Shown: positions 25,659 through 43,393 of the stretch, in pieces | Layout: every line of letters begins with the position of its first letter | Numbering within the stretch: the first letter of the stretch is position 1 | NCBI GenBank assembly: GCA_017404985.1 | Contig: JAFRBK010000052.1 | Coordinates: forward strand, 62,001-126,000 | Reading direction: 5' to 3' | Origin: Clostridia bacterium | Lineage (GTDB): Bacteria; Bacillota; Clostridia; Christensenellales; Aristaeellaceae | DNA length: 64,000 nucleotides | Notes under the pieces: model-generated | The model's input: the letters and a program-made list of their open reading frames with translations, nothing else | Databases searched by the model: none | Told to the model about the DNA's origin: nothing | Made by a program: the position numbers and the translations under genes

Positions 25659-27367
25659 TGTCCGGTCAATGCCTCATAGGTGACGCCATACTTTTCCGCG
25701 ATGTCCCGGGCGAAGGATTTTCCTTCCGGAGGCGCGATCCGGACCCGGAAGGAATGCCGGCCGTTGACGGTTTCCGATACCAGGGAAAGGGCCCTGCCGG
25801 GACGGGAAAGATCATTGACCGCCTGGTCCAGATCCCGGGCCAGCTTATGCATATGCGTGTTATAGATGGCACGGCAGTTCCGATCCAGCAGGGCTTTGAC
25901 GGAATCCACGGCAATATAGTATCCTTCCTCGAAGGATGTGGTGGAGAAGGTTTCGTTCAAAAGCACCAGGCTGTTTTCGGAACAGAGGGAGAAGAGCTCC
26001 TTAAACCGGCGGCATTCCTCCCCCAGGCGGCCCAGGTCCAGCGTTTTGTCCTCGTCAGCGGGGAAATGAGTCAGCACCTGGTCCGCCGGATCAAAGGCAA
26101 AGGATTCGCCGGGAACAAAAATCCCGCTCTGGGCCAGCAGGAACAGCTGCCCCACGGCCTGGGTGACCGTGGTTTTTCCGCCCCGGTTGGCGCCGGTCAG
26201 CACATAGATCCGCTTTTCCGCGTCAAAGGACAGGTCGTTGGGAACCACCCGCTCCGGCGGCTCCGCACCGATTAGCTTCAGGTTATAGAACCCCCGGGCA
26301 TCCATTCGGGTGGCAGTTTTCTCCCCGGGGAGCACCTGCGGTTTGCAGAAGCGCCAGCCTTTTCCATTCAGGACGGACAAATATTCTGCCCAGCGGGTAT
26401 AGAAAACCAGTTCGGGAATCAGATCGGCAATTTCCTTGACGCTGATATTGACATATTTGGCCAGGGTGGCCTTCAGTTTCCGGACAAGGCGGGACACCAG
26501 CATCGAAGCGGCGGAATCCATCTGGCGCGGCACATTGGCGGAACCGTCGGCTGCCGGGACGGAGGCCATCGTGAGCCCCAGCAGCGGATTGCGCAGAACC
26601 GCCGCGGTATGGCTCAGCTGGTCCAGGCCGGAGGACAGCGCGGAGCCCAGGGTGGCAGGCCAGGCAGAATAGCTGCCATTCCAGTCCGCCTCCTGATGAA
26701 TGTCATCCCTGGGGTTCACGGCGCTGACGAAGTGGCGCAGAATGCCGGAATAGGAGAAGGGCTTGGCGTTCACGGTAATCAGCCCCATGCTGACCGCTTC
26801 AAAGCGGTCATTCAGGTTTACGCCCAGCGTCAGGCTTTTGACCTGGGAAGCGGAGACCCGCATCTCCTCCACGTCTTTTTTCAGGGCGGCAAACCCGTTT
26901 TCCGCATAGATGCCATCCACGGTCTCCTTCAGCTGGACCAGGCCCCGGGAGGATAGGCTCGCATCGGAGAGACATTCCCGGATTTCCTCCACGGTGATGA
27001 TATAATCGTGGTATTCCTCCAGGCGGTGTAACAGGTCCCAGAGGCTGTCGTCCCGGTCGTTGGGGCGGACGGTGACGCCGTAATCATAAAAGGTTTTGAC
27101 CTGCTCGAGCAGCTTCATCAGCCGGTTCCGGATTTCCGGATGGGCCAGCAGATCCTCAAACACGTCCGCACGGAAGGCGCTGACCCGGGGATCGGGCGTC
27201 AGGCTGGTCATGACCCGGCGGATCAGGGGAACTTCCTGTGGCTGCGCTGCGATTTTTTCCGTCAGGACGTCCAGCCCCAGGTCATGCCAGGCGGTTTCCG
27301 GCAGCGGCCGGTATTCCACTTCCTCCTGCCAGGGGAAAAGAATGCTCAGATGGGATTTCGGGCTCAC
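25655..27367 (-). CDS. MutS-related ATPase lacking mismatch-recognition domains
   Basis: 570 residues. The C-terminal third is a MutS ABC-type ATPase: Walker A GANRGGKTTV (about 375-384), Walker B LVLLNETFSTTSFEEG (about 457-472), then YNTHMHKL as the His switch. The N-terminal part is helical and lacks the MutS mismatch-binding and connector domains, and there is no Smr nuclease domain, so it is neither MutS1 nor MutS2. The usual Walker B Asp is Asn (LLNET). The family is widespread in clostridia without a known role; DNA or RNA structure handling is a guess. GTG start with AAAGGAGG 10 bases upstream. It follows tex by 24 bases, in one operon. Confidence 0.85.
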   Translation of the reverse strand: MSPKSHLSILFPWQEEVEYRPLPETAWHDLGLDVLTEKIAAQPQEVPLIRRVMTSLTPDPRVSAFRADVFEDLLAHPEIRNRLMKLLEQVKTFYDYGVTVRPNDRDDSLWDLLHRLEEYHDYIITVEEIRECLSDASLSSRGLVQLKETVDGIYAENGFAALKKDVEEMRVSASQVKSLTLGVNLNDRFEAVSMGLITVNAKPFSYSGILRHFVSAVNPRDDIHQEADWNGSYSAWPATLGSALSSGLDQLSHTAAVLRNPLLGLTMASVPAADGSANVPRQMDSAASMLVSRLVRKLKATLAKYVNISVKEIADLIPELVFYTRWAEYLSVLNGKGWRFCKPQVLPGEKTATRMDARGFYNLKLIGAEPPERVVPNDLSFDAEKRIYVLTGANRGGKTTVTQAVGQLFLLAQSGIFVPGESFAFDPADQVLTHFPADEDKTLDLGRLGEECRRFKELFSLCSENSLVLLNETFSTTSFEEGYYIAVDSVKALLDRNCRAIYNTHMHKLARDLDQAVNDLSRPGRALSLVSETVNGRHSFRVRIAPPEGKSFARDIAEKYGVTYEALTGH

Positions 27368-27391
27368 TTGGAGATAACCTCCTTTCCGCGA

Positions 27392-29539
27392 TTACACCTT
27401 GTTTTTCACCATGGTCAGGGCGATGCGTTTTTTCTTTTCATCCACTTCCACGACCCAGACTTTGACGACATCGCCCACCTTGACGACCTCGGAGGGATGG
27501 CGGATGAAACGGTCGGACATGCGGGAAATATGCACCAGCCCGTCCTGATGCACGCCGATATCCACAAAGGCGCCGAAATCGATCACGTTGCGCACGGTGC
27601 CTGTCAGCTCCATGCCCGGGACCAGATCCTTCATATCCAGGACATCGGTGCGGAGCACCGGGCGAGGGAGCTCGTCACGGGGATCCCGGCCGGGCTTGGC
27701 GAGCTCGGAGAGCATGTCATTCAGCGTCGGGAGACCGACGCCGATTTCTTCCGCCAGTTTCTGATGGCCGTACTGCGAGGCCCGGTGAACAATATCCGGC
27801 ACGCCACCGCGGATTTCCTTCAGGTCATAGCCCAGTTTTTCCAGCAGGGCTTTGGCTGCATCATAGCTTTCCGGATGCACGGCCGTGGCGTCCAGCGGGT
27901 TTTTGCTGTCTGCCACCCGCAGGAAGCCGGCGCACTGCTCATAGGCGCGGGGCCCCAGTTTCGGCACTTTCTTCAGGGTGGCCCGGGAAGGAATGCCGTT
28001 TTCCTCCCGATAGGCCACGATATTTTTCGCCAGGGCCGGGCCGATGCCTGCTACATGGGAAAGCAGCTCCGCCGAAGCGGTGGATACCTCCACGCCCACC
28101 TGGTTGACACACTGTTCCACAACGCCGTCCAGCGCATCGGTCAGCTCCGCCTGCTTCAGGTCATGCTGGTACTGGCCGACGCCGATGGCTTTCGGGTCGA
28201 TTTTGACCAGTTCCGCCAGCGGGTCCTGCATGCGCCGGGCGATGGAAACGGCGCTGCGCTGGGTCACGTCGAAATCCGGGAACTCCGCCGCGGCCAGCTT
28301 GCTGGCGGAATAGACGGAGGCGCCGGCCTCACTGACGATCATGTAGGCGACGCCGGGGAGCTCCGGAAGCAGGGAGGCAATGAACTGCTCGCTTTCCCGG
28401 CTGGCGGTGCCGTTGCCGATGGCGATGGCCGTGACGCCGTATTTCTTGACAAACCCCTTGATCAGCCGGGCTGCGGCGGCCTTGCCGGCCTCCGCGCCGG
28501 GAAGGGTGAAATGGCCGACGCCCGTATCCAGCACCTTGCCGTTTTCATCGACAACGGCCAGCTTGCAGCCGGTGCGGAAGCCCGGGTCTACACCCAGGGT
28601 TACTTTTCCCTTGAACGGCGGCTGCATCAGCAGCTGATGCAGGTTCTGGGAGAAGACCCGGATGGCGGACACATTGGCCCGGTCCGTCAGCTCGTTGCGG
28701 ATTTCCCGCTCCAGGGAAGGGAAAACCAGACGCTCCAGCGCATCCTCGCAGGCCAGCGCCACCTGCCGGGAGGAGGCGCTTTCCCCGCGGACCCAGGTTT
28801 TCTTCACAATGGCATCCGCCTTGTCCATGGGCCCTTCCAGCGTGACTTTCAGGAACTCCTCCCGCTCGCCGCGGTTGACCGCCAGAATCCGGTGGGCAGC
28901 CATGGAACGGACGGGTTCGGAGAAGTCATAATACATGCTGTAAACGCTGTCCTCGTCCTTTGCGGCCTTCGTCCGAAGGATGCCTTCCCGCAGAAGCAGC
29001 TCCCGCAGGGCTTTGCGCACATCCGCGTCATCGCTGACGGTTTCCGCCAGGATATCCCGGGCGCCGGCGAGGGCGGCCTCCGCGTCGGGGACCTCCTTGT
29101 CGGGGTCAATATACTTCGCGGCTTCGGCTTCGGGATCCCCCTTCGGATTCTGGAGCATGAGCCAGAGGGCCAGCGGTTCCAGGCCCTTTTCCTTGGCGAT
29201 GGTGGCCCGGGTACGGCGCTTCGGGCGGAAGGGCCGGTACAGGTCCTCCAATTCCGACAGGGTGGCCGCAGCGGCCAGGCGCGCAGACAGTTCCTCCGTC
29301 AGCACATCCTGTTCGGTCAGGGCTTTTTCGATCTCTTCCCGGCGCTTTTCAAGATTCCGGAGGTATTCCAGGCGTTCGGCCATTTCCCGCAGGATCTGGT
29401 CATCCAGGGAGCCGGTGGCTTCCTTGCGGTAGCGGGCGATGAAAGGGATCGTGTTGCCGGCGTCCAGCAGATCAATGACGGCCTGAACCTGGGCGGGGCG
29501 CAGGGAAAATTCCCGGGCGAGAAGTTCTGTGAAGTTCAT
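27392..29539 (-). CDS. tex: RNA-binding transcription accessory protein Tex (YhgF family)
   Basis: 715 residues with the full Tex order: N-terminal helical region, YqgF/RNase H-like fold (GVDPGFRTGCKLAVVDENG, about 308), helix-hairpin-helix repeats (about 480-560) and a C-terminal S1 RNA-binding domain (GTVRNVIDFGAFVDIGVHQDGLVHIS, about 640-665). Tex/Spt6-like proteins bind RNA and act with RNA polymerase and, in some reports, the ribosome. Start chosen at 29539: AGGAGG lies 9 bases upstream and the codon overlaps the stop of the GTPase-NYN gene (ATGA). A 16-codon upstream extension lacks a site. The overlap implies translational coupling with that GTPase. Confidence 0.96.
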   Translation of the reverse strand: MNFTELLAREFSLRPAQVQAVIDLLDAGNTIPFIARYRKEATGSLDDQILREMAERLEYLRNLEKRREEIEKALTEQDVLTEELSARLAAAATLSELEDLYRPFRPKRRTRATIAKEKGLEPLALWLMLQNPKGDPEAEAAKYIDPDKEVPDAEAALAGARDILAETVSDDADVRKALRELLLREGILRTKAAKDEDSVYSMYYDFSEPVRSMAAHRILAVNRGEREEFLKVTLEGPMDKADAIVKKTWVRGESASSRQVALACEDALERLVFPSLEREIRNELTDRANVSAIRVFSQNLHQLLMQPPFKGKVTLGVDPGFRTGCKLAVVDENGKVLDTGVGHFTLPGAEAGKAAAARLIKGFVKKYGVTAIAIGNGTASRESEQFIASLLPELPGVAYMIVSEAGASVYSASKLAAAEFPDFDVTQRSAVSIARRMQDPLAELVKIDPKAIGVGQYQHDLKQAELTDALDGVVEQCVNQVGVEVSTASAELLSHVAGIGPALAKNIVAYREENGIPSRATLKKVPKLGPRAYEQCAGFLRVADSKNPLDATAVHPESYDAAKALLEKLGYDLKEIRGGVPDIVHRASQYGHQKLAEEIGVGLPTLNDMLSELAKPGRDPRDELPRPVLRTDVLDMKDLVPGMELTGTVRNVIDFGAFVDIGVHQDGLVHISRMSDRFIRHPSEVVKVGDVVKVWVVEVDEKKKRIALTMVKNKV

Positions 29540-32196
29540 GAATGGGGACCTCCTGAGGATGATGTTTTTTCGTGTTGCTTTTTCCAAGCCTCTTTATATG
29601 CCCGCTCCAGGGCTTTTTCGGCTCCGGGGCGGTTGTTCTTTTCCAGGAATGCGGCGATGCTTCCCCGAACCTTGATGATTTCCTCCCGGAATTCCCGGGC
29701 AGAGGTGCGCATCGCCGCATTTCCGCCGGCAATCAGCTGCTCCGGCTGGTCCGATGTCACCACCCGGATCCGGCCGGTATTCCTGCCCAGGAAAGTAGTT
29801 TGTTCGATGAAAGCATCCGCTGTCTGGGACTGGCGGGTATAGATGACGAAAATATTCTGGTACTTTTCGGCGGAACCGGGATTGCCGGGGACCCGGTAAG
29901 CATCGAAAACGAGGATGACCCGGTGGCCGGTGGCGCCGGAATAGTTGCAGAGCAGGTCGGCCAACGCTTTGCGGGCGGAATCCAGGGAAGAGTTCAAAAG
30001 GGGCTTCCATTCCTCCCAGGCATAGAGCACATTATAGCCGTCCACGAGGATAATCTCCCGATCGCCGGAAGGGGGCGCGGCCGGAGGGAGCACGGACGGC
30101 GCAGGATTTTCCCGGACCGGAGAAACCAGGCTGCGGGCTTTGACCGGGCCATATGTGCGCTCAAAGATCCGCTGCAACGCGGCATCCTCCTCGGCGGGAT
30201 CCATGCGGGAGGGAGGCGCACCGGAAACCATGGAAGGCGCGGCTTCCCGCCGTTCCCGCAGTTCTTTCCAGGAGGGAAGGTGCATGTGCTGCTCCACCTC
30301 GTTCCAGGGAACGGTATAGCCGGCGCCATGGGAACAGAAGACGGAGTCCGGACTGTTCTGCAGGTCTCGCAGGGGATCATACCCTTTCGCGGCAACCACT
30401 GCTTCCTGGTCCGGGCAGGGCTGCCAGGCCCTGAAGGAGGAAACCAGCTGACCCCGGCCCCGGGTAAACACCCGGAATTCCCGACCCCAGGAGGCACAGG
30501 CAGAGGCTGGCGCCTCAGCTGAAAGCTTTTTCATGCCTTCCCCGGCGTCTTCCGGGGGATCAAATCGGCCGTCCATGCGGTTCAGGTCCGTAAGCACCCG
30601 GCCCAGGTTTTCCTCCGGGACGATGATTTCCAGCGCCAGGGTTGGTTCCAGCAGCATGGCAGGGGCTTTCATCAGCCCCTGGCGCAGCGCCCGGTAAGTG
30701 GCCTGGCGGAAATCGCCCCCTTCGGTATGCTTGAGATGGGCTTTGCCGGCCACCAGCGTGATTTTCATATCCGTGATCGGAGAACCGGTCAGCACGCCGA
30801 CATGCACCCGCTCCCGCAGGTGGGTCATGATCAGCCGCTGCCAGTTCAGCGCCAGATCGTCCACCGGCACAGCGGAGGCGAACTGAAGCCCGCTGCCCCG
30901 GGGAAGCGGCGAAAGCAGGAGATGAACTTCGGCATAGTGGCGCAGCGGCTCATAATGACCGACGCCTTCGGTTTCCTCCAGAATGGTTTCCCGATACAGC
31001 ACGCCGCTGTCCGCAAAGGAAACCTCCAGGCCAAACCGGTCCCGCAGCTGGCGGGAGAGGACCTCCAGATAGACTTCGCCCATGGACTGGATGCGGATCT
31101 CCCGCCGGGGTTCCAGGTATTCCACCTGAATCAGAGGTTCTTCCTCCTCCAGGGCGCTGAGGCAATCCAGCACATAGTGCAGGTCGGCGCCGGGGGCGGG
31201 AACGAGGCGGCACTGCCAGCAGGGGCGAAGTTTCTGGTCCCGGCGGGGCGGGGCGGAACCCAGCCCGTCTCCGGGGCGGGTTTTGCTCAGGCCGACCACA
31301 CAGCACAATGTGCCGGCTGGCGCCTGGGAAACAGCGGTATACCGGGCGCCGGAATAGAGCCGGATTTCCGCCGCCTTTTCCGTCCACAGGATTTCGCCCG
31401 ATTCATCACGTAGGGACAACGGATCCCGGGCTTTCAGGAGGCCGCCGGTGACTTTCAGAAAGGTCAGGCGAGCGCCCTGGGGATCCCTGGCGACCTTATA
31501 AACCAGCGCCCCGAAATCAGGGCCGGAAGACGCGGCAGGCTCACATCCCGAGAGAAAATCCAGCAGCGGTTCCACCCCTTCATTCCGCAGGGCGCTACCG
31601 AAAAAACAGGGAACAAGCTTCCGCTCCCGGAACAGGGCCCGGATTCGGTGATCCGGCACCGTGCCCTCCCGAAGAAAGGCATCCAGGGCGGCTTCATCAC
31701 ACAGGGCGATTTTTTCGGGATCCGGATCCGGGAAAGGAATAATTCCCTCAGACAGCTGGTCGTGCAGGGAGGAAAGCAGATCATCCCGGTTTCCGTGGAA
31801 GCTGTCGGTTTTATTGACAAAAAGAACCACCGGGAGCCCGGCAGCGGCCATCAGTGCCCACAGGGTCCGGGTATGGCTCTGGACGCCTTCGGGGGCGCTG
31901 ATCACCAATACGGCCGCATCCATCACGCGCAAGGCCCGTTCGGTTTCCCCGGAAAAATCAGTGTGCCCGGGGGTGTCCACCAGGGTCAGGTCCGTCTTTT
32001 TCCAGGAAAGGCGGGCTTCCCGGGAGAAGATGGTGATCCCCCGTTCCTTCTCCATCTGTTCCGTGTCCAGAAAGGCGTCGCCATGGTCCACCCGGCCCTG
32101 GCGGCGAACGGCGCCGGAAAGATAAAGCATGGATTCGGACAGAGTGGTTTTGCCGGCGTCCACGTGGGCCGCCAGGCCGATAACCGCACCGAGCAC
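29536..32196 (-). CDS. TetM/EF-G-like translational GTPase fused to a C-terminal Rae1/YacP-like NYN endoribonuclease domain
   Basis: 886 residues in two parts. Residues 1-650 are a translation-factor GTPase of the ribosomal-protection (TetM/O) class: G1 AHVDAGKTTL (about 10-19), G2 RGITIF, G3 DTPGHTDF, G4 VNKTD, G5 FGSAL, then EF-G domains II-V, ending with PDSVFCSHGAGYTVPWNEV. Residues 711-850 are an NYN/PIN-like domain matching YacP/Rae1: ILVDGYNVLYAWEEW (Asp719), VILVFDAYRVP (Asp765), QTADAFIE (Asp794) and RVVTSDQPEQ (Asp816), so all four acidic positions are present. Rae1 of B. subtilis cleaves mRNA in the ribosomal A site, the site EF-G-type GTPases enter. GTG start with AGGAGG 7 bases upstream; the stop overlaps tex. 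Tetracycline resistance is not implied. Confidence 0.93.
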   Translation of the reverse strand: MLGAVIGLAAHVDAGKTTLSESMLYLSGAVRRQGRVDHGDAFLDTEQMEKERGITIFSREARLSWKKTDLTLVDTPGHTDFSGETERALRVMDAAVLVISAPEGVQSHTRTLWALMAAAGLPVVLFVNKTDSFHGNRDDLLSSLHDQLSEGIIPFPDPDPEKIALCDEAALDAFLREGTVPDHRIRALFRERKLVPCFFGSALRNEGVEPLLDFLSGCEPAASSGPDFGALVYKVARDPQGARLTFLKVTGGLLKARDPLSLRDESGEILWTEKAAEIRLYSGARYTAVSQAPAGTLCCVVGLSKTRPGDGLGSAPPRRDQKLRPCWQCRLVPAPGADLHYVLDCLSALEEEEPLIQVEYLEPRREIRIQSMGEVYLEVLSRQLRDRFGLEVSFADSGVLYRETILEETEGVGHYEPLRHYAEVHLLLSPLPRGSGLQFASAVPVDDLALNWQRLIMTHLRERVHVGVLTGSPITDMKITLVAGKAHLKHTEGGDFRQATYRALRQGLMKAPAMLLEPTLALEIIVPEENLGRVLTDLNRMDGRFDPPEDAGEGMKKLSAEAPASACASWGREFRVFTRGRGQLVSSFRAWQPCPDQEAVVAAKGYDPLRDLQNSPDSVFCSHGAGYTVPWNEVEQHMHLPSWKELRERREAAPSMVSGAPPSRMDPAEEDAALQRIFERTYGPVKARSLVSPVRENPAPSVLPPAAPPSGDREIILVDGYNVLYAWEEWKPLLNSSLDSARKALADLLCNYSGATGHRVILVFDAYRVPGNPGSAEKYQNIFVIYTRQSQTADAFIEQTTFLGRNTGRIRVVTSDQPEQLIAGGNAAMRTSAREFREEIIKVRGSIAAFLEKNNRPGAEKALERAYKEAWKKQHEKTSSSGGPHS

Positions 32197-32793: not shown

Positions 32794-33804
32794 TCACAAG
32801 TTGTCAAAGGTCTGCAAGAGATTCTGAGAAGGTTTTGTTTTTCCTTTTTCCATTTCATGAATCAGGCAGACAACCCGGTCATTGACAGGGGTGGGGACGC
32901 CGGTTTTTTTGCCCCATGCGCAGACGACCCCGTTGATGGCGTCCACCTCGCAGGGCTTGCCGTGCTTCAGGTCCTGCAGCATGGAAGGCTCAATGGCAGC
33001 ATGCTTTTTCATGGCGGCAGGGAGGATCAGGGAGGCCAGCGCCCTTTTCAGGGGCGTTTTCCAGTAGAACAGGCTGACGATATCCTTGCCCTGGACGGGG
33101 GCGAAGGTGACGCCGGCAGCCCGGCCCACATCGATGACCTCCTTCATGCAGGCGGTGGCGGCTTTCCTGCCCAGGGGATCCCCGGTGACGCTGCCGAAGG
33201 TGCCGCCCATGACCGTGCCCAGCCCGGAGAAGGTGGCATTAATCAGCAGCTTGGACCAGCGGGCGCCGGGCAGGTTAGGCTCCAGCACTACGGGGCACAT
33301 ATGCTCCAGAACCTCTTTGACCGAAAGCAGCTGCGCTTCGGAGATACCGGGCATGCTGCCCATATGGAAAGAGAGGCTGTCCGGTTCGGACGTCAGAAGG
33401 CATTCCCCGGGGGCGGTTCGGGTGGCGCCCCATTCCACCACGCAGCCGACCGTGTGCTCCGGGCCGACAATTTCGGCGATCCCGTCCTCCGGGATCCCGT
33501 TCTGCATAGTGACAATCAGGCCGTCCTTCGACAAGTAATCTTTCAGGAAGGTGACGGTTTCCCGGTTGTTCAGCTGTTTGGTCATCAGGAAGACCAGATC
33601 ATAGACGCCGGACATCTGCTCCGGTAGCAGCGCGGTGACCGGGACTGTCAGGTCCACGGTTCCGGTAATCCGGGCGCCGCGGGCGTTCAGGGCTTCCACA
33701 TGTGCCTTATTCCGGTTGACCAGATCGGCGGGGACGCCGTTTTTGGCCAGGTAAGCTCCCAGTACCGTTCCCAGGGAACCGGCGCCGAAAATACAGATTC
33801 TCAT
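32794..33804 (-). CDS. ketopantoate reductase family oxidoreductase (PanE/ApbA-like)
   Basis: 336 residues. N-terminal Rossmann fold with FGAGSLGTVLGAYLAKNG (about 5-22), followed by VFLMTKQLNN (about 72) and MQNGIPED (about 100), matching the NADPH-binding core of the 2-dehydropantoate 2-reductase family. The C-terminal helical domain includes KLLINATFSGLGTVMGG (about 185-201), the LxxNxxxNxLxA-type catalytic Lys region. Whether the substrate is ketopantoate or another 2-oxoacid is open. It starts 36 bases after metI on the same strand with only a distant AAAGGA, so it may be read with the met operon. Confidence 0.85.
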   Translation of the reverse strand: MRICIFGAGSLGTVLGAYLAKNGVPADLVNRNKAHVEALNARGARITGTVDLTVPVTALLPEQMSGVYDLVFLMTKQLNNRETVTFLKDYLSKDGLIVTMQNGIPEDGIAEIVGPEHTVGCVVEWGATRTAPGECLLTSEPDSLSFHMGSMPGISEAQLLSVKEVLEHMCPVVLEPNLPGARWSKLLINATFSGLGTVMGGTFGSVTGDPLGRKAATACMKEVIDVGRAAGVTFAPVQGKDIVSLFYWKTPLKRALASLILPAAMKKHAAIEPSMLQDLKHGKPCEVDAINGVVCAWGKKTGVPTPVNDRVVCLIHEMEKGKTKPSQNLLQTFDNL

Positions 33805-33840
33805 GTTATTTTTGTTTTCCTTTGCTGTATTTTACGATTT

Positions 33841-34554
33841 TTACTGTTTCAGCCGCTTGTCGCACTTCCGGGCGAGCCGGGTGCCGACGCTCTGAAAGAC
33901 CTGCACCAGAATCACCAGCACGATCAGCGCGGCCAGCAGCACGGCCTGGTTATACCGCTGCTGCCCCTGGGTAATGGCCAGGTTGCCCAGGCCGCCGCCG
34001 CCTACCGCGCCGGACATGGCAGTATAGCCCAGAATGGTGGTAATCGCCGTGGTAAAGCTGGTAATCAGGGATGGAACGCTTTCCGGCAGCATGACATGGG
34101 TCACGGTCTGCCAGGTGCTGGCACCCATGGAAAGGGACATTTCAATGATATTCGGGTTGACCTCCCGCAGGGAGCCTTCCACCAGCCGGGCAACAAACGG
34201 AAACGCCGCAATAATCAGTGGAACGATGACGGCCGCATTGCCGACCGCACGGCCGACAATCGCCCGGGTGATCGGCATCAGCACGACAATCAGGATGATG
34301 AAGGGCGCAGAACGCAGCAGGTTGATCAAGCCGTTCAGGAAAGCCATCAGCGGCTTGGGCAGCGGCCGGATTCCCTTGCTGTCGCCTGTCACGAGGATCA
34401 CGCCCAGGGGCAGGCCGATCAGAATCGCGAAAAGCGTGGACATCAGGGTGATATACAGGGTGACGGCTGTTTCCTGAAGGAAGTATTCCCGGATGACATC
34501 CCAGGCCTTGGCCAGTTTTTCCGGGTTATAGTATGTGGCAATATAATCACCCAT
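33841..34554 (-). CDS. metI: methionine ABC transporter permease MetI
   Basis: A 237-residue inner-membrane permease with five hydrophobic helices. Typical: TLYITLMSTLFAILIGLPLG (about 30-49), RSAPFIILIVVLMP (about 85) and the ATPase-coupling EAA loop with EMSLSMGASTWQTVTHVMLP (about 140-160). C-terminal GYTAMSGAVGGGGLGNLA matches MetI. It forms the channel of the MetNIQ importer. Start at 34554 lies inside the last codons of metN (8-base overlap) with AAGGGGGAAG upstream; a longer frame to 34773 runs antisense-like through metN and lacks a site. Confidence 0.95.
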   Translation of the reverse strand: MGDYIATYYNPEKLAKAWDVIREYFLQETAVTLYITLMSTLFAILIGLPLGVILVTGDSKGIRPLPKPLMAFLNGLINLLRSAPFIILIVVLMPITRAIVGRAVGNAAVIVPLIIAAFPFVARLVEGSLREVNPNIIEMSLSMGASTWQTVTHVMLPESVPSLITSFTTAITTILGYTAMSGAVGGGGLGNLAITQGQQRYNQAVLLAALIVLVILVQVFQSVGTRLARKCDKRLKQ

Positions 34555-35593
34555 GAATCGCTTCCCCCTTTCCGGACGCAGTGCCCGCGTACTCCGCCTC
34601 CACCTGAACCGTAACATCCGGGGTGCCGGATAGATATTTGACCGCCCGGGCCAGTTCCTCCGGGCCTCCGGGAATGCCCAGCACCATATAACCGTAGGCC
34701 CGATCGCCGATGGAGCGGGTGGAGGCACCGAGAATGCTGGCCAGGATGCCGCAGTCCACCGCCATTTTGGCAATCAGCGGCTCCTTGGAAGCGATTGCCC
34801 CGTTGAAGATGACCCGGATATGCTGGCCGCTTTCCAGCGCTTCCGTGATGCTGTCCACCGTTTCCGGGAAGACCAGGGCCCGGGTGGCGGCAGCTTTGGG
34901 ATGGCTGAAGACCTCGCTGACGTCCCCTTCCTCCACGACGGCGCCGTTTTCCAGGATGGCTACCCGGTTGCAGATTTCCTGCACCACGCTCATCTGATGG
35001 GTGATGACAATGACCGTGATCCCCATGGTCCGATTGATTTCCCGGATCAGCTCCAGAATGGCATGGGTCGTTTTCGGATCCAGGGCGGAGGTGGCTTCAT
35101 CGCACAGCAGCACCTTCGGCTCCGTTGCCAGGGCACGGGCAATGGCGAACCGCTTCCTCTGGCCGCCGGACAGTTGCGCCGGGTAGGCATTGGCCTTGTC
35201 CGGCAGGCCGACTGTTTCCAGCAGCTCGGAGGCCCTGGCTTTGGCTTCCGCACGGGGCATATGGATCAGCTTCAGGGGCAGCATGATGTTTTCCAGGCAG
35301 GTGCGCTGCATCAGCAGGTTAAAGCTCTGGAAAATCATCGTGATCTGATGGCGGACCTGCTGAATTTCTTTTTTGTCCAGGGCCCCCAGATCGGTTCCGT
35401 CCCAGACGACAGAACCCTCGGTTGGCCGCTCCAACATATTGATACAACGAACCAGGGTGCTTTTCCCGGCTCCGCTCATGCCGATGATGCCGTAGATATC
35501 CCCGTCCCGGATGGTCAGGTTCACATGGCTCAGTGCGCTGACTGTGCCGTCCGATGTTTCAAAGTTTTTGCTCAGGTTTTTAATCTCAATCAT
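34547..35593 (-). CDS. metN: methionine ABC transporter ATP-binding protein MetN
   Basis: A 348-residue ATPase with Walker A GMSGAGKST (about 38-46), Q-loop IFQSFNLL, signature LSGGQRKRFAIARAL (about 140-154), Walker B LLCDEATSALD and H-loop VITHQM. A C-terminal NIL/ACT-like domain (about 265-345) normally binds methionine and inhibits transport when the cell is replete. The signature differs slightly from the usual LSGGQKQRVAIA. It is read after metQ (79 bases) and overlaps metI. Confidence 0.96.
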   Translation of the reverse strand: MIEIKNLSKNFETSDGTVSALSHVNLTIRDGDIYGIIGMSGAGKSTLVRCINMLERPTEGSVVWDGTDLGALDKKEIQQVRHQITMIFQSFNLLMQRTCLENIMLPLKLIHMPRAEAKARASELLETVGLPDKANAYPAQLSGGQRKRFAIARALATEPKVLLCDEATSALDPKTTHAILELIREINRTMGITVIVITHQMSVVQEICNRVAILENGAVVEEGDVSEVFSHPKAAATRALVFPETVDSITEALESGQHIRVIFNGAIASKEPLIAKMAVDCGILASILGASTRSIGDRAYGYMVLGIPGGPEELARAVKYLSGTPDVTVQVEAEYAGTASGKGEAIHG

Positions 35594-35672
35594 TTTTTTC
35601 TCCGGTTAAACACGAAAGCACACCGGCGGCGAAAATGCTGCCGGTGTGGCATGATGGCAGAACAGTCAGGAA

Positions 35673-36524
35673 TTACTTGCTGATTTTCAGGGCACTCAGG
35701 TCCGCCTGCTTCCCGCCGTAGAGCGCCATGGGCTCCACATGGATGCCGGCGATGGTGACCAGGTGTGTTCCGTTGCCGGCATTGAAGGAATCCTGATAGG
35801 GCTGATGGGCAAAGTAGTTCGCGAACACGTCGCCGTTTTCCACAAACTCATTGGGGGTCACATAGTCAGTGACTTCCTTGATGTCCAGGGTGATTTCCTT
35901 TTCCTTCAGGATTTCGGCGGCGACTTTCAGCACTTCCACATGGGGAACGGGGGTCGCGGCTACGGAGATAGTGGTGCCCTTCAGCGCTTCGTAATCCACG
36001 GTGGCATCGAAACCGTCGGTCACATTTTCCACGGTGGCAACCGCGGCGCCGGCATAGGTTTCATTGATGAAGTCCACCACTTTCTGGCTCTGCAGGGCAG
36101 CGGCCAGGGCCTTGGCGGCATCGGTGGTTTCATTGCCTTCCTTCACGCTGACCACGTTCACATAGGGCGAGTCGGCGCTTTCAATCAGCAGGGAATCCGA
36201 CACGGGATTCAGGCCCGCCTGAAGAGCGAAGTTGTTATTGATAATCGCATAGTCCACATCGGTGCGGATTTCCGGCACCAGGGCGGCTTCCACTTCGGTC
36301 AGCTCGATGTCAACCCCTTCCACCGTGGAGGCGATGTCGCCCTTGGTGGCTTCCAGGCCGGCGCCTTCCTTCAGCGTCAGCACGCCGGCGCTCTGCAGCA
36401 GAAGGAGGGCACGGCCTTCGTTGGTGGGGTCATTGGGAACAGCAATCGTAACGGTATCCGCCAGGGCGGCAGCAGCAGACAGGGTCAGAACCAGGGCCAG
36501 GACCAGAGCAAGAATCTTTTTCAT
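35673..36524 (-). CDS. metQ: MetQ-type methionine-binding protein with circularly permuted domain order
   Basis: 283 residues. A Sec signal peptide (MKKILALVLALVLTLS, cleavage near ALAD) without a lipobox Cys, so it may not be a lipoprotein. Residues 25-165 correspond to the second half of normal MetQ: VTIAVPNDPTNEGRALLLLQ, GAGLEATKGDI, AIINNNFALQAGLNP, DSPYVNVVSVKEG, ALQSQKVVDFI. A linker (about 166-183) then leads to the first half: TTISVAATPVPHVEVL (about 184), EVTDYVTPNEFVENGDVFAN, HQPYQDSFNAGNG, VEPMALYGGK. Normal MetQ has the opposite order, so the gene is permuted at the hinge before AVPNDP. Neighbouring metN and metI are normal. AAAGGAGATTTCCC precedes the ATG. Confidence 0.9.
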   Translation of the reverse strand: MKKILALVLALVLTLSAAAALADTVTIAVPNDPTNEGRALLLLQSAGVLTLKEGAGLEATKGDIASTVEGVDIELTEVEAALVPEIRTDVDYAIINNNFALQAGLNPVSDSLLIESADSPYVNVVSVKEGNETTDAAKALAAALQSQKVVDFINETYAGAAVATVENVTDGFDATVDYEALKGTTISVAATPVPHVEVLKVAAEILKEKEITLDIKEVTDYVTPNEFVENGDVFANYFAHQPYQDSFNAGNGTHLVTIAGIHVEPMALYGGKQADLSALKISK

Positions 36525-40818: not shown

Positions 40819-41028
40819 TCAGGCGATTCCGAGGAAAGTATATCCCTTTTCTTCCACTACGGCTTTGACTGCTTCCGCGTCCGCAGGGCCGGAAAGCGTC
40901 AGAACCGCCTGGTTTTGCTCATGGCTGGCCTCAGCGTTTTCCACAAAGGGAAGGCTTTCCAGCGCCTTTTTGACGTTGGCTTCGCAGTGGCTGCACATCA
41001 TGCCTTCGATTTTGACTGTAGCGGTCAT
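40819..41028 (-). CDS. internal in-frame start for a free CopZ-like copper chaperone
   Basis: Within the copA frame, ATG at 41028-41026 is preceded by AAAGGAGG (41045-41038) with a 9-base spacing, as good as any start in the window. From it a 69-residue protein is encoded with the CopZ fold and MxCxxC metal site (GMMCSHCEAN). It has the normal CopZ length (about 69). Free chaperone may thus be produced along with the fused form, comparable in effect to the E. coli CopA(Z) product made by frameshifting. Confidence 0.65.
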   Translation of the reverse strand: MTATVKIEGMMCSHCEANVKKALESLPFVENAEASHEQNQAVLTLSGPADAEAVKAVVEEKGYTFLGIA

Positions 41029-43380
41029 GGGATCGGGCCTCCTTTCTGTTTTATTCTCGTTGGGGCCGCCGGCCGGGGAAACGGCGGCAGCCTTGTTCCG
41101 CAGGGGCTTATCGTGGGATGCGTCCCGGAGCCGGAAACGGTTCAGGCGCAGGGCATTCATACATACCGTGAAGCTGGAGAGGCTCATGGCCGCGGCACCG
41201 ACCATCGGGTTCATTTTCCAGGAGAACAGGCCGGCTGCCAGGGGAATGCAGACCGCATTATAGAAGAAGGCCCAGAACAGGTTCTCATGGATGTTCCGGA
41301 GGGTTGCCCTGGACAGGCGGATGGCCGCCGCCGCATCCGTGAGGGAGCTGTTCATCAGGACGATATCGGCGGAATCGATGGCCACGTCTGTTCCCGCGCC
41401 GATGGCGATGCCGGTGTCGGCCCGGGCCAGGGCCGGGGCGTCATTGATGCCGTCGCCGACCATGGCGACCTTTCCGCTTTGCTGCAGGGTCCGGATGACG
41501 GCTTCCTTCCCCTCAGGAAGCACGCCGGCCACCACTTCATCCACGCCTGCGGTGCGGCCGATGGCTTTTGCTGTCCGCTCATTATCACCCGTCAGCATGA
41601 CCACGCGGAGGCCCAGGCCCCGCAGCTGGCGGACCGCTTCCGCCGAGTCGGATTTGACGGTATCCGCCACGGCGATAATGCCGAGCAGCGACCCGTCCTC
41701 TTCAAAGAACAGAGGGGTTTTTCCCTGCTCCGAAAGCTGCTCCGCCAGGGCGGACAGTTCCCCGGGAACAACGGCAAGGGTGCGGATATAGGTTCCGCTT
41801 CCCCCGTGCAGCGTATGATCCCCAAGCGTGCCGGCCAATCCGTTTCCCGGCAGGGCGGAAAAACCGGACACCGGTTCAAGAACTATCTGCCGCGCAGCCG
41901 CTTCGGCAACGACGGCTTTCGCCAGCGGGTGCTCGCTCTTCTGTTCCAGGGCGGCGGCTTTGGAAAGCAATTCGGCCTCATCGTGCCCCGGCGCAGGGAA
42001 AAGATCGGTGACCTTCGGTTCCCCGGAGGTGATGGTCCCGGTCTTGTCCAGGGCGATGATCTGCGTTCTGCCGGTATTCTCCAGCGCTTCGCCCGTTTTG
42101 AACAGGATGCCGTTTTTCGCTCCCAGCCCGTTGCCGACCATGATGGCGACGGGGGTGGCCAGGCCCAGGGCACAGGGGCAGGAAATCACCAGCACGGAGA
42201 TAGCCCGGGCCAGCGCGAAGCTTACCGATTCCCCAGCGGCCAGCCAGCCGACAAGAACGACCAGGGAAATGCCGATGACCGCAGGAACAAAGACGGCGGA
42301 AACCCGGTCTGCGATCCGCGCAATCGGTGCCTTGGTGGCGGCTGCATCGGAGACCATGCGGATAATCTGCGCCAGGGCTGTGTCTTTGCCGACGCGCACC
42401 GCCCGGCAGACCAGATAGCCGGAGGTGTTGATCGTGGCCGCGCTGACGGGGTCGCCTTTTGCTTTGTCCACCGGGATGGATTCACCGGTCAGGGCTGCTT
42501 CGTTGACAGCGCTGCTGCCTTCCACCACTATTCCGTCTACCGGAATGCTTTCGCCGGGACGGACGGCAAAAAGGTCGCCGGCCTGAACGGTTTCAACCGG
42601 TACAACGGTTTCCTGCCCGTCCCGGAGCAGCACGGCGGTTTTCGGCGCCAGGCGCATCAGGCTTTTCAGCGCGTCCGTCGTCCGGCCTTTGGACCTGGCC
42701 TCGAGCATCTTGCCGACGGTAATCAGCGCCGGAATCATGGCCGCGGATTCAAAATAGAGCTGATTGTGATACAGATCCATGAGCTCCGCATTGGCGGCGC
42801 CGGCCGTGACCATGCCGCACATCCGGTAAAAGACGAAAAGGCTCCAGCCAAAGGAAACAGAGGAACCCAGGGCGACCAGGGTATCCATATTCGGCGCACC
42901 GTGCCGGAGCGAACGGAAACCGCTCACAAAGAACTGGCGATTGACGGCCATCACCGCTGCCGCCAGCAGCATCTGGGTCAGGGTCAGGCCCAGATGGTTA
43001 TGGACAAGCCAGGCGGGGAGCGGCCAGCTCCACATGTTATGGCCCATGGTTATATACATCAGCACCAGCAGAAAACCCAGCGACCATGCCAGCCGCTTTT
43101 TCAGCTTCGGGGTTTCCCGGTCCTTCAGGGCATCTTCCTCGGCGGCAAAGCTGCTTTCCGGGGCAGCTTCGGCTGCGCCAGCCCTTTTGAGACCGGCACT
43201 GTAGCCGGCTTTTTCCACGGCGCGGATAATGTCTGCCGGCGCGGCCGACCCCTCCACGCCCATGGAGTTGGTCAGCAGGCTGACGGAAACGGAGGTTACG
43301 CCCGGCACGCTGCCGACCGCCTTTTCAACCCTTGCCTGGCAGGCTGCGCAGCTCATTCCGGTTACCAGATACTGTTCCAT
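40819..43380 (-). CDS. copA: copper-exporting P1B-type ATPase CopA with N- and C-terminal HMA domains (copA-copZ in-frame fusion)
   Basis: An 853-residue Cu(I) pump. N-terminal HMA with GMSCAACQARV (about 8-18), eight membrane helices, actuator GES-type loop ALTGESIPVDK, the copper-site motif SCPCALGLATP (about 398), phosphorylation motif ALDKTGTITSG (about 443) and hinge VGDGINDAPALARAD (about 640). After the last helix comes about 30 residues of low-complexity linker (KAAAVSPAGGPNENK...), then a second HMA with GMMCSHCEANVKKAL (about 793). A C-terminal HMA is unusual for CopA. Linker DNA holds an AAAGGAGG and ATG, so it reads like an old copA-copZ intergenic gap. It follows csoR by 13 bases. 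Confidence 0.96.
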   Translation of the reverse strand: MEQYLVTGMSCAACQARVEKAVGSVPGVTSVSVSLLTNSMGVEGSAAPADIIRAVEKAGYSAGLKRAGAAEAAPESSFAAEEDALKDRETPKLKKRLAWSLGFLLVLMYITMGHNMWSWPLPAWLVHNHLGLTLTQMLLAAAVMAVNRQFFVSGFRSLRHGAPNMDTLVALGSSVSFGWSLFVFYRMCGMVTAGAANAELMDLYHNQLYFESAAMIPALITVGKMLEARSKGRTTDALKSLMRLAPKTAVLLRDGQETVVPVETVQAGDLFAVRPGESIPVDGIVVEGSSAVNEAALTGESIPVDKAKGDPVSAATINTSGYLVCRAVRVGKDTALAQIIRMVSDAAATKAPIARIADRVSAVFVPAVIGISLVVLVGWLAAGESVSFALARAISVLVISCPCALGLATPVAIMVGNGLGAKNGILFKTGEALENTGRTQIIALDKTGTITSGEPKVTDLFPAPGHDEAELLSKAAALEQKSEHPLAKAVVAEAAARQIVLEPVSGFSALPGNGLAGTLGDHTLHGGSGTYIRTLAVVPGELSALAEQLSEQGKTPLFFEEDGSLLGIIAVADTVKSDSAEAVRQLRGLGLRVVMLTGDNERTAKAIGRTAGVDEVVAGVLPEGKEAVIRTLQQSGKVAMVGDGINDAPALARADTGIAIGAGTDVAIDSADIVLMNSSLTDAAAAIRLSRATLRNIHENLFWAFFYNAVCIPLAAGLFSWKMNPMVGAAAMSLSSFTVCMNALRLNRFRLRDASHDKPLRNKAAAVSPAGGPNENKTERRPDPMTATVKIEGMMCSHCEANVKKALESLPFVENAEASHEQNQAVLTLSGPADAEAVKAVVEEKGYTFLGIA

Positions 43381-43393
43381 TGAGATTCCTTTC

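Follow-up and report, generated by a model that had tools for sequence, protein, structure and literature searches.

The window analyzed here, a stretch of 64,000 nucleotides from a Clostridia bacterium, encodes on its minus strand (32196→29536) a protein of 886 residues in which a translational GTPase is followed by a nuclease domain (Table 1). The gene starts at a GTG (position 32196), with the AGGAGG of its ribosome-binding site 8 to 13 bases upstream, and ends in a TGA stop codon (29538-29536). An earlier note, made from the sequence alone, had read the product as an EF-G/TetM-type GTPase complete with domains II to V, joined to a C-terminal YacP/Rae1 NYN domain with four acidic residues, and Pfam and structure-database matches bear this out. 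Pfam profiles match the GTPase half from the G domain to domain V, with domain II scoring below threshold in the right place, and a motif check found the P-loop, RGIT, DTPGH, and NKxD; in a search of solved structures this half matches EF-G (E = 1e-73) and TetM (7e-68). The nuclease part scores 141.6 bits with the NYN_YacP profile (PF05991; cut-off, 24.6), and its only solved relative with a meaningful E value is YacP/Rae1 from Bacillus subtilis (5mq8/5mq9, E = 1e-22), with which all four aspartates align.

Table 1. Features of the fusion gene and the adjoining tex gene (window positions)
Feature	Position	Strand	Remarks
Whole fusion gene, 886 aa	29536..32196	-	GTG start; Shine-Dalgarno AGGAGG, 32209-32204
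G domain, residues 6-218	31543..32181	-	Pfam PF00009 GTP_EFTU, E 4e-50; AHVDAGKTT, RGITI, DTPGH, NKTD
EF-G-like domain II, residues 228-312	31261..31515	-	PF22042, 20.4 bits, below the 27-bit cut-off; position right
EF-G-like domain III, residues 325-394	31015..31224	-	PF14492 EFG_III
EF-G-like domain IV, residues 399-511	30664..31002	-	PF03764 EFG_IV; own tip GHYEPLRHYAEV and KHTEGGDF
EF-G-like domain V, residues 515-597	30406..30654	-	PF00679 EFG_C
Family-specific GTPase C-terminal extension, about residues 598-640	30277..30405	-	SVFCSHGAGYTVPW; C621 and H639 nearly invariant
Linker, about residues 641-715	30052..30276	-	Short motif IFERTYGPVK
NYN_YacP (Rae1-type) nuclease domain, residues 716-873	29578..30051	-	Pfam E 3e-41; Asp 719, 765, 794, and 816 invariant in alignment
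tex	27392..29539	-	Start overlaps the fusion stop (ATGA); neighbor not conserved in loci examined

The ATGA overlap between the fusion and tex, pointed out in the earlier note, is real; the suggestion that Tex is a coupled partner found no echo elsewhere. No tex gene lies beside the fusion in 9 genus mates (1.5-kb flanks), in 59 loci whose flanks reach at most about 5 kb, or in another 84 loci drawn in part from the same genomes, and Tex was dropped from the model because the adjacency was seen only in this genome. ORF clustering of the 59 loci gave no conserved neighbor; the best recurring clusters, by our reading of their sequences, belong to an ABC transporter family in 7 loci and to a MATE-like family in 6. 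In the window, the region upstream of the fusion (32794-36524, minus strand) holds a reductase of the PanE/ApbA type together with the permease, ATPase (with a NIL domain), and NlpA lipoprotein of an ABC transporter that looks methionine-type. A role in antiphage defense was rejected, there being no PADLOC match, and no structured RNA in the window matched Rfam at gathering scores. Several very long antisense open frames of up to 900 aa (27140-29842 and 40915-43383, both on the plus strand, and others) are probably codon-usage artifacts.

A GTPase family beside Tet(M) and EF-G

Searches with the GTPase half also retrieved relatives that lack the NYN domain; these are about 645 to 685 residues long and end near residue 640 of the query. 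In a tree of 108 GTPase rows, 96 family members form a single clade (support, 100); 10 RPP-type rows, including Tet(M), stand apart from it (support, 85; 73 in a 63-row subset tree), and the remaining 2 are EF-G types. Duplicates and near-identical sequences had been removed before this tree and the NYN tree described below were built, and in both sets a full-length filter left out loci with a GTPase truncated at the stretch end, together with one that has an internal stop (L121). The label RPP-type is our own, except for L155, which is tet(M), and L156, a predicted tetB(P) with 38% identity.

In the alignment, the histidine of DTPGH is present in all 60 fused and all 36 NYN-less rows, and the motif HTxGGDF at the tip of domain IV occurs in 57 of the 60 and 35 of the 36, respectively, and in none of the 10 RPP-type or 2 EF-G rows. 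Lysine (Lys489 in the window protein) occupies the column of Tet(M) Pro509 in 55/60 fused and 35/36 NYN-less rows; proline is found there in only 2 of the 10 RPP-type rows, so that the column distinguishes the family from Tet(M) but not from all RPP-type proteins. Toward the end of the GTPase, C594, C621, and H639 are each kept in 58/60 fused and 36/36 NYN-less rows; these nearly invariant residues could be a metal or redox site.

Curated profiles place the protein outside both named groups. With NF012153 (tet_protect; cut-off, 775 bits), the window protein scores 359.6 bits; Tet(M) itself (L155) passes with 880, and an RPP-type protein (L093) fails too, with 510. The score with the EF-G profile TIGR00484 is 265.1 bits, against a cut-off of 659.4, and the GTPase is about 25% identical to the two EF-G-type proteins of its own genome (L157 and L158). 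The GTPase half is a clade of its own beside Tet(M)-type proteins, without the Pro509 loop of Tet(M); the term "ribosomal-protection-type" in the earlier note fits the fold but neither the clade nor the loop. Two family members (L033 and L034) are annotated as TetM/TetW/TetO/TetS resistance proteins, yet they reach only 389 and 378 bits against the same curated cut-off of 775. NCBI also assigns relatives H2, H5-H8, and H10-H20 to the TetM/TetW/TetO/TetS family, and counts of resistance genes may be inflated by such names on members of this family.

Distribution, origin, and selection

Both halves are encoded in all 19 genus genomes searched, including that of the window, and in 3 of them as contig fragments; the fusion is therefore not a chance product. 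Beyond the genus, a scan of named genomes gave at least 589 relatives. The best 80 of these all run to at least residue 834, which takes in the four NYN aspartates; they come from Intestinimonas, Butyrivibrio, Fusibacter, Anaerovorax, and many Lachnospiraceae and Oscillospiraceae bins; the nearest named relatives are Clostridia bins. A sample of the order gave NYN_YacP matches in 41 of 200 genomes, one match each, of which 12 lie in ORFs of at least 700 aa, 25 in ORFs of at most 230 aa, and 4 between. The class sample had matches in 249/391 genomes, and the best 150 rows divide into 79, 63, and 8 by the same length limits. For the phylum sample the figure is 134/249 genomes; among the matches listed, 16 rows are in ORFs of 863 to 922 aa, 11 of them in genomes outside the class (counted by eye).

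Across the class sample, 156 genomes have both GTPase and NYN (15 as separate genes and about 141 fused, the latter obtained by subtraction and not by looking at every ORF), 9 have the GTPase alone, 93 have NYN alone, and 133 have neither. These counts take in 15 of 17 genomes with weak GTPase matches that had first been set aside; a second search of the 15 found six fused genes in contig pieces, three NYN-less family members (G454 and G377, with NYN, and G442, without NYN), and six RPP-type genes. The other two (G049 and G072), whose 32% matches end at residue 600 and are of the RPP type, were excluded from that search. GTPase without any NYN_YacP match thus occurs in 9 of the 165 GTPase genomes, of which G341 is cut by a contig end and G442 may be broken, and NYN without the GTPase occurs in 93/249, so that neither needs the other. 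When fused genomes were left out, free yacP was present in 17/18 NYN-less GTPase genomes of the order versus 12/170 genomes without the GTPase (Fisher P = 1e-15) and in 15/23 versus 93/226 genomes of the class (P = 0.045, with G341 omitted for its contig end), with kinship uncorrected in either test. As separate genes, the GTPase and yacP are associated strongly in the order and weakly in the class.

All 60 fused rows of the GTPase tree fall within one clade of 63 (support, 99), a result also obtained with the 63-row subset. Only three NYN-less rows lie inside it, one from a plasmid of Ligilactobacillus and the others from two genomes in the same order as the window, and a clade of fused rows only is weakly rejected in the subset (p-AU, 0.034). 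The simplest reading of these trees is that NYN was fused a single time and afterward lost about three times. Of the 41 free domains in the NYN tree, 40 group together in one clade (support, 99) apart from the fused ones. The exception, L057:1486-2055 (minus strand) in genome G448, is a free gene whose NYN is of the fused type and whose stretch contains no rlmB; its domain seems to have split off again from the fusion.

The plasmid gene, from Ligilactobacillus salivarius (L034), sits NYN-less inside the fused clade and among transposase genes. Genome G083 (L164 and L144) likewise has a GTPase inside the fused clade without NYN, and its free yacP stands in the usual rlmB-yacP-sigma order. Two different fused genes (L106 and L169) are carried by G343. 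At G006:C56:8569-9226, pieces matching fusion residues 3-118 and 774-879 lie end to end, either an internal-deletion remnant or an assembly error; that genome also has a full-length gene elsewhere.

The linker measures 59 to 113 residues (median, 73) in 63 fused rows, and a short motif such as IFERTYGPVK was found in 34 of these and in none of 53 rows without NYN; duplicates are counted in both row sets, and RPP-type and EF-G rows are among the 53. Five comparisons with genus mates gave dN/dS values of 0.17 to 0.19 for the NYN domain, 0.20 to 0.25 for the GTPase, and 0.17 to 0.34 for the linker, all of them rough, as dS is about 1 or more. The fusion NYN domain is under purifying selection. 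Its catalytic competence, which the earlier note had wanted checked by alignment, is borne out to the extent that the four aspartates are invariant, in 58/58 fused and 41/41 free domains, and the active site looks competent.

The rlmB-yacP locus in genomes with the fusion

One of the papers on B. subtilis Rae1 (PMC6613710, PMC10100781) describes yacP as cotranscribed with rlmB (yacO). The gene directly upstream of free yacP encodes a SpoU-type methyltransferase in all nine loci that were scanned by Pfam; by tblastn, rlmB is directly upstream in 36 of 41 loci, and a sigma-factor gene follows yacP in 32. We take the two flanking genes to be rlmB and sigH from their Pfam domains and a paper on B. 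subtilis Rae1.

In 38 genomes with the fusion, none of the 38 rlmB loci has yacP after rlmB, and 36 of them leave over 500 bp in which it could lie. Of the 38, 21 have the sigma gene after rlmB, 17 of them within 200 bp; the other 17 loci have no sigma gene within the stretch covered (about 1 kb or less), and there the empty slot is read solely from the absence of yacP. No free yacP was found in the genome of the window (2.98 Mb, 85% complete): the fusion is its only NYN_YacP match, and about 40 bases separate rlmB from the start of the sigma gene. The earlier note had named a stand-alone YacP, together with an NYN domain lacking a competent active site, as a finding that would weaken its model; neither the search nor the usual locus showed such a gene, and the active site looks competent, so the model passes this check. 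Only 1 of the approximately 141 fused genomes of the class (G530) also has a free yacP above the cut-off, beside rlmB. It is one of five class genomes with two NYN matches; the second match is weak, partial, and below the cut-off in G346, G408, and G447, and the pair in G343 consists of two fused genes.

In many Clostridia, the fusion has apparently supplanted the stand-alone gene for Rae1. The missing yacP is a matter of synteny; by extension, the fused NYN domain would have taken over the function of Rae1, and the empty rlmB slot is the strongest new evidence for this.

Proposed function and known systems

We give about even credence to the proposal that the fusion is this genome's Rae1, tethered to a translational GTPase that delivers the NYN domain to the ribosome. 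In this reading, a GTPase from the clade adjoining the tetracycline ribosomal-protection proteins, with a domain IV tip of its own in place by then, gained a Rae1-type NYN domain once at its C terminus, through a linker of some 59 to 113 residues; the fused gene would then have taken over from free yacP. To judge from its fold, the GTPase half would bind ribosomes, presumably those with an empty or blocked A site; family folds would put it on the A-site side with domain IV in the decoding center. On GTP hydrolysis domain IV would withdraw, making way for the tethered NYN domain to enter, or reach beside, the A site and cut the mRNA, as proposed for B. subtilis Rae1; by simple length, the linker should suffice for such a hand-over. 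We infer A-site cutting by the fusion from what is described of Rae1, an A-site endoribonuclease proposed to enter stalled ribosomes, in passages of two papers (PMC6613710, PMC10100781).

The earlier note had counted it as support that Rae1 cuts exactly where EF-G-class GTPases dock. This is a difficulty as much as an argument, since domain IV would exclude the Rae1 domain: the two probably cannot both fill one A site, so that they would have to act one after the other, next to the A site, or on a neighboring ribosome, and a hand-over is favored. In favor of a Rae1 tethered to a GTPase we count the architecture, the catalytic residues, dN/dS, the single origin, and the replacement of yacP; against it we count the genomes with GTPase and no NYN (9/165) or NYN and no GTPase (93/249), the weak association in the class, and the probable mutual exclusion of domain IV and NYN in one A site. 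A bolder form of the proposal, which we regard as possible but doubtful, makes the fusion the principal Rae1 in a large part of the Clostridia, a ribosome nuclease that is driven by GTP and delivers itself, and whose KHTEGGDF tip would sense a stalled or empty A site and hand over, whereupon the NYN domain would cut the mRNA and start rescue and decay.

It is rather unlikely, in our judgment, that the halves are joined but separate in function, with NYN doing ordinary Rae1 work, the GTPase having an unrelated ribosome job of its own, and the fusion fixing only their ratio. The domain IV tip is the same in NYN-less GTPases, 93 of the 249 NYN genomes have free YacP and lack the GTPase, the linker is long and variable (59 to 113 residues), and a fused-type NYN domain exists as a free gene (L057 in G448), all of which would fit such independence; it is less easily squared with one origin and few losses, with a linker motif in 34/63 fused rows, and with the loss of free yacP beside rlmB.

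A role in antibiotic resistance, in which a tetracycline-protection-like protein adds RNase action, has been proposed in print, in a brief passage of Atkinson 2015 (PMC4342817), and agrees with a fold that is the same as that of TetM and with the NCBI annotation of relatives as TetM/TetW/TetO/TetS family. We consider it improbable, given the 359.6 bits with NF012153 against a cut-off of 775 (880 for Tet(M) L155, although RPP-type L093 fails as well, with 510), the lysine at the Pro509 column in 55/60 fused and 35/36 NYN-less rows (proline in only 2/10 RPP-type rows), a GTPase clade separate from Tet(M), and the presence of the fusion in 19/19 genus genomes, 3 of which have a further RPP-like gene. 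No more credible is a nuclease whose ribosomal substrate is rRNA or tRNA, to be matured or trimmed, instead of mRNA. Earlier work cited in PMC4342817 had proposed a part for NYN domains in the maturation of rRNA and tRNA, and free yacP adjoins an rRNA methyltransferase gene; the B. subtilis Rae1 papers, in the passages concerned, describe translation-dependent A-site cutting of mRNA (PMC6613710, PMC10100781).

The same brief passage of Atkinson 2015 reports the gain of a YacP-like RNase domain of the NYN type by Tet proteins in ten clostridial species, for which it suggests antibiotic resistance by RNase action (PMC4342817). Our literature searches on both domains together returned this paper alone and found no functional test of the fusion. 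The architecture is already published, and its function is without a reported test as far as the searches reach; the earlier note, which knew of no described function and supposed an unnamed GTPase, was fair on the first count and had missed the published description. The fusion is real and widespread, and its sequence makes it look active. New here are the evidence for replacement of yacP and the evidence against filing the protein as a tetracycline resistance protein. If the fusion is indeed a tethered Rae1, a widespread Clostridia protein sometimes labeled as tetracycline resistance would be a ribosome-directed mRNA nuclease; Rae1, known as a free protein in B. subtilis, would also exist in a GTPase-driven form, offering a natural system for the delivery and timing of an A-site nuclease, and fusion genes should not be counted as resistance genes.

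Among known systems, the Tet-NYN proteins of Atkinson 2015 (PMC4342817) share the two-part architecture and the bacterial group: compared by description, the window protein is of that type, an EF-G/Tet-type GTPase with a C-terminal YacP-like NYN domain in a clostridial genome. They were treated there, in the passage concerned, as a short note under Tet, whereas here the GTPase is a separate clade with one origin of the fusion, subsequent losses, and replacement of yacP. Tet(M) and Tet(O) have domains G and II to V and a similar length to about residue 640 in common with the fusion, and differ in loop III (YYSPVSTPADF in Tet(M), KHTEGGDF in the fusion); the fusion family has its own C-terminal extension, forms a separate clade, and scores below curated cut-offs. 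EF-G has the same domain order and GTPase motifs, at about 25% identity for the EF-G types of this genome and a profile score of 265 bits against a cut-off of 659. B. subtilis Rae1/YacP (5mq8) matches the fusion over the whole NYN domain and shares its four aspartates; Rae1 is free-standing, whereas the NYN domain of the fusion is tethered, and fused NYN domains stand apart from 40 of the 41 free ones.
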